In this document: piece after piece, positions 53,601 to 55,056 of the stretch
Numbering within the stretch: the stretch's first letter is position 1
Layout of the letters: the number at the start of each line of letters is the position of its first letter
DNA from: Lactifluus volemus
Taxonomy: Eukaryota; Basidiomycota; Agaricomycetes; Russulales; Russulaceae
Assembly (NCBI GenBank): GCA_022376515.1
Contig: WTXI01000115.1
Span: forward strand, 1 to 64,000
DNA length: 64,000 nucleotides
Direction of reading: 5' to 3'
The notes under the pieces: model-generated
Databases searched by the model: none
Seen by the model: only the letters and a program-made list of their open reading frames with translations
Told to the model about the DNA's origin: nothing
Made by a program: the position numbers and the translations under genes

Positions 53601-53714
53601 GTAGGTACTCTACACGGGAATCAATACACTACTCGGCCATGGGTGGGGATGTGAATGACCGGGAGTGGCTGTCCCCATCATGATCGGTTGATGCCAGTGT
53701 GAGCGTGAGAAAAT

Positions 53715-53855
53715 GCCACGTATTAAACAAGGCGACGTGGCAGCGACACTTTCTTCACCTACGGCCACGTACGTCCTGCGCGCCCTCCGCAGTCGCATCC
53801 TCTCTACTTTTACCAAGTCACTCACTCCTCTCTCTTTCCTCATCTACTGCCACGT
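53715..53855 (+). promoter_or_regulatory. Cluster of four GCCACGT/ACGTGGC sites upstream of HAC1
   Basis: GCCACGT at 53715-53721, 53764-53770 and 53849-53855, and its inverse ACGTGGC at 53735-53741, all within 155 bp of the HAC1 ATG. ACGT-core sites with flanking GG are bound by XBP1/HAC1-class bZIP proteins (UPRE consensus TGACGTGG), so autoregulation is a reasonable inference. Confidence 0.5.
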
Positions 53856-53869
53856 ACTTATTCCAAGCC

Positions 53870-55056
53870 ATGGCTATCGTTGACTCTTCTTCCTCCAACA
53901 ACCTTCCCTCATCATCATCGCCTTCTCATACTCCAGACTCTTCCACGTCACCACCGCCCTCGACGACCGCTACCTCCAAGTCTTCGGCAAAGTCCCGTCC
54001 AGCGCCCACATCCAATGAAAATGGTGCCCCACCACGAAAGCGGTCTCGGTCTGACATTTCTCCTGAAGAGCGCAGGGAAGCCCGTGCACACCGCAATCGT
54101 ATTGCAGCTCAGAACAGCCGTGACAAGCGCAAAGCACAATTTAGTGCCCTCGAGGCTCGCATCGACGAGCTTGAGGCTGAGAACAGAGCTCTCCGCGCAG
54201 GCGTGGCCCCTCCTCTTTCAATGGCTGTTGATAACGTCGAACACCGTGCAGCAAACGCAGCTCGCGAAGCTGAGAACGATGCATTACGCGAACGTGTGCG
54301 CACTCTTGAGACTGCATGGGAGGCAATTGTTCGCACCCTCCAGACTCACAGCGCCACTGCGGGCCTCCTACCAGTTTTGCCCCAGGGATCAACTAGTGCG
54401 CCATCGCCATCATCCTCGGAACCTTCAGCATCAGCACCGTCACCGTCACCTTCTACAACAACGTTCCCAGTCTTTGTACCACCTACCCCCGTCTTTTCAC
54501 TCGACGACGCCGTTTTCCCCCTCTCCCCAGCACCGAGCAATGCCAGCATTTCATCTAACACATCGAGCCCTGACTTCTTCAATCTCACGCATGAACCCAC
54601 TTGCCACTCAGCACGGGTGGTGAGCGCCCCCTCTTCGGTGGCGCCCCTGCAGCGGGTGGATCCATGCAAACAGACGAAGATGTTAGTGCGCTCCTTGGTG
54701 CCGGCGCGGGCGAGACTATTGACGAAGCGGCCATGGACGATCTCTTCCGCGAGATTCTGGCGGCGCCCCCCACGCCGGCCTCCGCATCGCCGTCACTGAC
54801 GGGCGGCGAGGTAGAGGTACCGGATCAGGATCAGGACTCAGCCGTCGTAGGTGCTGATGTGGATATGGATATGGGGAAGGTGTTAGAGAGGGAGATACAA
54901 AGGCTTTTCGACCTGGTACCTGCGGCCAGCTCTGCGCTCGGGCTCACTTTGGACAGCGTACCGCCTCTAGCCATTGAAGAGAGCGGCAATGTTGCGCTTG
55001 AGCTGGACCTCGGCGCGTGGGAGGCATCAATAGGCCTCACACAGCCAGTTTTATAA
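53870..55056 (+). CDS. HAC1: HAC1/XBP1-type bZIP transcription factor (UPR), with unconventional 38-nt intron
   Basis: ATG at 53870 (MAIVDSSSSNN), a Ser/Pro-rich N-terminus, a basic NLS (PPRKRSRSD), then the bZIP: basic region RREARAHRNRIAAQNSRDKR (about 54072-54131) and zipper FSALEARIDELEAENRALR. This is the signature of HAC1/HXL1/Cib1, the effector of the ER unfolded protein response whose mRNA is cut by IRE1. Unspliced, the frame ends at 54799 (309 aa) with a basic tail. Removing 54612-54649 (38 nt) shifts to the frame ending at 55056 (382 aa), with an acidic tail (MQTDEDVSALLGAGAGETID, VLEREIQRLFDLVPAAS, LELDLGAWEASI). No conventional intron makes this switch. The intron and its hairpins are annotated separately. 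Confidence 0.88.
54600..54658 (+). promoter_or_regulatory. IRE1-type unconventional splice sites (two RNA stem-loops) flanking a 38-nt intron
   Basis: 5' site: 9-bp stem 54600-54608 paired with 54616-54624 (including three G-U pairs), 7-nt loop CAGCACG (54609-54615), cut after the third loop base (54611). 3' site: 5-bp stem 54642-54646 paired with 54654-54658 (one G-U), 7-nt loop CTGCAGC (54647-54653), cut after 54649. This is the C-N-G|C loop geometry known for HAC1/XBP1 mRNAs. The excised 54612-54649 is 38 nt (2 mod 3), as needed to join the two frames at a GCA codon. Confidence 0.82.

Follow-up and report, generated by a model that had tools for sequence, protein, structure and literature searches.

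IRE1-spliced HAC1 mRNAs are already known from yeasts, moulds, Cryptococcus and Ustilago. A locus in a 64,000-nt stretch of Lactifluus volemus DNA, analysed here as a whole and called the window, raises the question of how two overlapping open reading frames that are out of phase are brought into one protein. The first of them (53870..54799; features lie on the forward strand unless stated otherwise) encodes a 309-aa protein that has its bZIP domain at residues 65-112 (54062..54205; Pfam bZIP_2, E 6.1e-12) and ends in a basic tail. The second, acidic frame is open after a stop at 54592, and its own stop ends at 55056. The initial annotation had described the locus as a HAC1 homologue with an IRE1-type intron, and recomputation gave the same phase relation and the same positions throughout. 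Excision of exactly 38 nt (54612..54649, with the ends CA...TG) joins the frames into a single one of 382 aa, as had been proposed. Exon 1 (53870..54611) then carries the start codon, the bZIP domain and a proline/serine-rich stretch, and exon 2 of the spliced form (54650..55056) the acidic tail with the stop codon; both bZIP_2 and bZIP_1 score above their Pfam cut-offs and are encoded upstream of the intron. The announced exchange of a basic for an acidic tail also holds, with 26 D/E and 4 K/R after the junction and 1 D/E and 16 K/R in the unspliced tail. We put the probability that this locus is the HAC1/XBP1 orthologue and that the 38-nt stretch is an IRE1-type intron, acting as laid out below, at about 0.93; the 38 nt are very probably cut from the HAC1 mRNA by IRE1 as a folding-stress switch.

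The borders of the predicted intron lie in two hairpins whose 7-nt loops and stem lengths agree with the initial annotation. The 5' splice hairpin (54600..54624) has nine pairs, three of them G-U, and the loop CAG^CACG at 54609-54615 (^ marks the cut), and the 3' splice hairpin (54642..54658) has five pairs, one of them G-U, and the loop CUG^CAGC at 54647-54653. As sequence, these are two 7-nt stem-loops with the scissile G at position 3. They had been called textbook examples, and this stands for the 3' loop, CUGCAGC, which fits the consensus CNGNNGN described for the studied yeast and animal sites (PMC3149027), but not for the 5' loop, CAGCACG, which has C and not G at position 6. The full consensus in both loops is typical and is not treated here as defining; the HAC1 locus does not show it. 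In ViennaRNA, C1 pairs with G7 and the 5' loop shrinks to 5 nt. When both strands of the window were scanned for 7-nt C-N-G loops with at least five stem pairs, 68 hairpins were found (30 on the forward and 38 on the reverse strand); among pairs of them spaced 15-130 nt apart, only the HAC1 loop pair joined frames that stay open over 300 nt or more on either side. The same scan of the 64-kb window yielded no pair in which both loops were fully CNGNNGN.

Folding of the RNA gave a mixed picture. The minimum-energy and centroid folds and the Rfam alignment share a region (54589..54667) with an outer stem formed by GCAUG (54589-54593) and CAUGC (54663-54667). Folded alone, the 5' hairpin reached a z of -2.48 and the 3' hairpin one of -0.72. 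Within an 88-nt context, the innermost 5' pairs had a probability of 0.83 and the 3' hairpin pairs one of 0.06 at most, and forcing both hairpins cost about 4 kcal/mol. The 88-nt fold was not unusually stable (z -1.22, with 20 of 200 shuffles as good) and was therefore left out of the evidence for the intron; structure prediction by itself would not have proved it. The Rfam family RF04247 ('bZIP non canonical Hac1/Xbp1 intron') aligned at HAC1 and placed both splice loops in register; its score there, 19.0 bits (E 2.1), was under the gathering score of 41. Genome-wide it gave no match at E 10, a null result that is uninformative because the family also gave sub-cut-off matches in 7 of 14 bacterial and archaeal control genomes.

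More was learnt from homologous proteins. The set comprised 145 sequences, namely 144 distinct matches listed (from the best 120 of 397 and the best 120 of 362) and the protein of the window itself, and classes were assigned by patterns, not by reading each gene model. The homologues are agaricomycete proteins, many of them named 'X-box-binding protein 1' in UniRef, which bears out the initial identification of the gene. The exact IRE1 junction, H[LSP]A^AGG, was present in nine of the 145 listed proteins, from Russula earlei, Trametes elegans, Gelatoporia subvermispora, Trametes maxima, Cristinia sonorae, Mycena floridula, Mycena vitilis and Mycena rosella, together with P0132, a 'jgi' protein from a 1,284-nt contig; four of these carriers, whose orders were looked up, belong to the Russulales, the Polyporales and, twice, the Agaricales. 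By the same patterns, 71 of the 145 have the unspliced frame only, with the same frame break and both motifs. The acidic frame was read through the intron in 17 listed proteins, a short join with the acceptor CTGCAG^CGGGTGG within the 3' site was used in 12, the join lay downstream of the 3' site in six and elsewhere in 25, and five were partial or unclassified. The 42 listed proteins of the read-through and otherwise joined classes (17 and 25) look like GT-AG guesses or intron read-through, and varied joins are as expected when gene finders force two frames together.

These models bear on the possibility that an ordinary spliceosomal GT-AG intron joins the frames, as it does in public models such as P0007; a GT-AG splice of this kind had been named at the outset as a result that would speak against the IRE1 intron. 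For donors at 53900-54796 and lengths of 16-600 nt, an enumeration of the GT-AG and GC-AG pairs able to join the frames in the window gave 782. Of these, 252 are GT-AG; three of the latter (149, 167 and 173 nt) have 54611 as their last nucleotide, and another (257 nt) has 54652. Conventional joins are thus at hand, and 17 of the 145 listed models do read through the predicted intron while 12 use the short join. However, none of the 782 produces the conserved A^AGG junction, so that no GT-AG join accounts for what is found in nine listed proteins of three orders; moreover, the proposed joins vary between groups, many of them remove the conserved 5' motif, and the short join of the 12 listed proteins would measure only about 23 nt by codon count. 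We therefore regard conventional splicing as very unlikely. The 38-nt stretch as such was also considered as a spliceosomal intron and rejected: it can be placed in four equivalent ways (CA..TG, GC..CT, AC..GC and CG..CA), and GT..AG ends occur in none of them. Nor is a conventional intron required elsewhere in the HAC1 coding frame. Since none of the 782 joins of the window makes the junction and the equivalent placements lack GT-AG ends, the exact-junction models most likely rest on transcripts. P0132 has the join inside a single ORF of its short contig, as would be expected of a spliced cDNA.

The IRE1 intron is further supported by the residues around the two cuts. A first count, in a set chosen by the motifs, had by construction given a frequency of 1.00 for the residues A, R, Q and R, which were recounted without requiring the motifs. 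The 5' anchor, with no requirement on the residues that follow, was found in 122 of the 145 listed proteins and was absent from 23; it was followed by xAR in 113 of the 122 and by xAA, the spliced form, in nine. At the 3' site, [LQR]QR was present in 65 of the 67 listed basic-tail proteins, the other two having no clear 3' motif. C-N-G codons exist for L, Q and R alike, in keeping with what the loop CNG^CAG requires; Ile at the CNG codon was seen in one of 77 listed proteins (P0117), which is probably a wrong gene model. Intron lengths implied by 76 listed proteins were 47 nt (31 proteins), 38 nt (15), 44 nt (14), 41 nt (6), 50 nt (6), 53 nt (2), 35 nt (1) and 74 nt (1), the last of which is probably a wrong model, and 75 of the 76 fall between 35 and 53 nt. 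All are of the form 3k+2 because they were computed that way, and this regularity is therefore not evidence. An implied length of 38 nt was common to all 13 closest unspliced-frame sequences among the matches listed, that of the window included. A search of viral contigs with P0001 as query gave no relative.

Given the weak 3' hairpin and overall fold, it might be argued that the hairpins arose by chance, that the 309-aa form is the sole product and that the acidic frame goes unused. Against this, the core of the acidic tail (DEAAMDDLFREIL, 54721..54759) is kept in related frame-joined proteins of many species, and both cut-site motifs are kept between variable flanks; of all the alternatives weighed here, we consider this the least probable, and next to negligible. 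The conservation of the basic tail is possibly explained by its overlap with the acidic frame, and we therefore claim no function for it.

The DNA directly shows just two overlapping frames, and the break between them could in principle be a sequencing error or be bridged by ribosomal frameshifting. The 62.4-Mb assembly (G000), in which the window lies on contig C19, contains a second HAC1 copy on contig C379 (98%), and we infer that the two are alleles. They differ by 18 substitutions in 53870-55056 and by none in 54566-54810, so that the splice region is identical, and their coding indels, of 3 and 6 nt, are in frame. Both alleles thus have identical frames, and the frame break with both motifs recurs in 71 of the 145 listed proteins. 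Frameshifting, moreover, would not lose the residues whose loss makes A^AGG. An error or a frameshift is accordingly most improbable, even more so than a conventional intron, and we retain excision by IRE1 as the explanation. The lack of substitutions in the dual-frame stretch 54595-54799, for which the chance is about 0.03 if substitutions are uniform, is suggestive only.

The protein P0007 (BGW80DRAFT_1254311, Lactifluus volemus, 340 aa) shares the amino-acid changes that set the C379 copy apart. This public model of the second allele (C379, about 111900-113000) enters the acidic frame at TGGERPLF, just past the equivalent of 54611, and loses the conserved stretch HEPTCHS; it is probably a wrong model with an invented-looking join. 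Near-identical gene copies were also observed on the contig pairs C46/C152, C242/C534 and C1/C492 besides C19/C379, so that at least part of the 62-Mb assembly seems to represent both nuclear haplotypes.

The enzymes needed for this kind of splicing are encoded in the same genome. The IRE1 RNase domain (PF06479) was found on C46 and C152, together with a kinase domain; a TAG inside one of the PF06479 matches closes a conventional intron. By eye, the N-terminus in the IRE1 open frames is signal-like, and a transmembrane-like stretch is present as well. The RNase core, KFRKY...RNKKHHYQDLP, matches solved IRE1 chains (2rio, E 2.3e-27; 3fbv, E 2.4e-27), and Y, N and H, placed by eye, stand at the positions of the yeast residues Y1043, N1057 and H1061 that are discussed in PMC3149027. 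A Trl1 RNA ligase, with PF08303 and PF09511, is encoded on C242 and C534. Together with the nine listed proteins that carry the exact junction and with the UPRE-like elements ahead of HAC1 and of four genes for ER chaperones or oxidase, these genes uphold the assignment of the intron to the IRE1 type.

Upstream of HAC1, the element TGCCACGT occurs three times within 53714-53855, at most 160 nt before the ATG at 53870, and these are all of its occurrences in the window. Two UPRE-like copies are on the forward strand (53714..53721 and 53848..53855), and one of the three extends to TGCCACGTCG (53733..53742, reverse strand), a perfect match to the UPRE of pit1/2 in Ustilago maydis (PMC4836707). 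According to the same source, the UPRE bound by Cib1 in U. maydis is TGCCACGT followed by CG or GT, and the pit1/2 motif is also present in the cib1 promoter (PMC4836707). Three copies of TGCCACGT per 64 kb are not an unusual count, since 27 of 100 shuffles held three or more; what is unusual is how they cluster. The shorter motif CCACGT occurs four times in the 600 nt before HAC1; elsewhere in the window, 286 of 1,249 overlapping 600-nt stretches contain at least one and none contains four. This cluster was noticed ahead of the comparison with the Ustilago UPRE, which is consequently not a blind test. The clustered elements suggest that HAC1 may activate its own gene, by analogy with what has been reported for cib1.

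Over the 700 nt that precede the first domain match, a stretch that may miss the promoter where this match starts in an inner exon, CCACGT was counted twice at BiP (with an HDEL end), twice at ERO1, once per allele at calnexin and once at an HSP70 that we read as Lhs1-like; over the same distance there was none at six other HSP70 loci, two of which look like alleles. Genome-wide, TGCCACGTCG was not clearly enriched (120 occurrences versus 102 for the reversed control), and therefore the element alone does not predict a UPR regulon. A further element was observed in the same region: CCACGTACGTCC (53765..53776) has nine occurrences in the 62-Mb genome, the HAC1 alleles accounting for two, versus one for the reversed control. 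N-terminal ORF extensions of relatives (P0026, P0034, P0057, P0082, P0090 and P0108), with PRTS, HVRP or TYV, are compatible with its presence upstream of their start codons. The HAC1 genes of Agaricomycetes may therefore have it in common, as a conserved element of the promoter or the 5' UTR.

The mechanism that we propose is as follows. Without stress, the mRNA would retain 54612-54649 and give the 309-aa bZIP protein with its basic tail. Upon ER stress, IRE1 would cut after G3 in each loop (CAG^CACG and CUG^CAGC) and Trl1 would ligate the halves, the frame shift giving the 382-aa protein with the acidic tail, a putative activation domain by analogy. This form would activate UPR genes, probably including HAC1 itself via TGCCACGT. 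The excision in L. volemus, its dependence on stress and on IRE1, and the autoregulation are all steps that we infer.

The departure of the 5' loop from the consensus may not be peculiar to L. volemus. In 113 of the 122 anchored listed proteins, the 5' cut codon is followed by Ala-Arg, and position 6 would not be G because Arg codons start with C or A; Leu precedes Ala-Arg in 98 of the 113, which puts U at position 1, and Ser does so in the other 15. This reading comes from protein sequences, with the same register assumed throughout, and suggests that the missing G6 of the 5' loop could be common across Agaricomycetes. A rule for the agaricomycete 5' site might then be (U/C)-N-G^C-N-(C/A)-G, unlike the CNGNNGN of yeast and animals, with position 1 pairing with G7 to leave a 5-nt loop, and with the 3' site keeping CNG^CA. 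Mushroom IRE1 would thus read two unlike loops, which would amount to a lineage-specific change of RNase specificity; to this rule and its consequence we give even odds.

The locus can be compared with several known systems. In Cryptococcus neoformans, HXL1 is reported to contain a 56-nt unconventional intron removed in dependence on IRE1 (PMC3154848). Like the L. volemus gene, it encodes a basidiomycete bZIP protein whose C-terminus is altered by removal of the intron, but it has CAG at both borders and a conventional intron upstream (PMC3154848), whereas the L. volemus intron has 38 nt and the borders CAG and CUG. The Ustilago maydis gene cib1 is likewise described as homologous to Hac1, with an active form that arises by splicing and a UPRE in its own promoter (PMC4836707, PMC6918084). 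Yeast HAC1 and animal XBP1 share with the L. volemus gene the two 7-nt loops cut after G3 and a frame shift that adds a new C-terminal tail, and differ in that the consensus of their loops is CNGNNGN (PMC3149027, PMC4891664), while the 5' loop of L. volemus lacks G6. Lengths given for such introns range from 19 to 379 nt and, later, up to about 850 nt (PMC6222058). The agaricomycete 'X-box-binding protein 1' entries have the same bZIP domain, the motifs xAR and [LQR]QR and the acidic tail, although in most of those listed the frames are unspliced or joined in another way. A literature search at the level of titles and abstract openings found no description of an agaricomycete HAC1 intron; Hooks and Griffiths-Jones (2011) may already list some. 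What is new is the L. volemus member, the clade-wide protein signature and, likely, the deviation of the 5' loop.

The 2014 genome paper of Pycnoporus cinnabarinus states that no clear Hac1 orthologue was found (PMC4101180), and the annotation gap is therefore real; a HAC1 homologue of this species, now Trametes cinnabarina, is among the matches listed (P0075). With the exact junction in just nine of 145 listed proteins, the UPR switch of mushrooms is often mis-annotated. Mushroom-forming fungi produce many secreted enzymes and form ectomycorrhizas. The signature of xAR and [LQR]QR followed by the acidic frame would allow the HAC1 models of Agaricomycetes to be corrected and, if the rule for the 5' loop does differ, mushroom IRE1 would offer a natural test case for the evolution of RNase specificity in IRE1.
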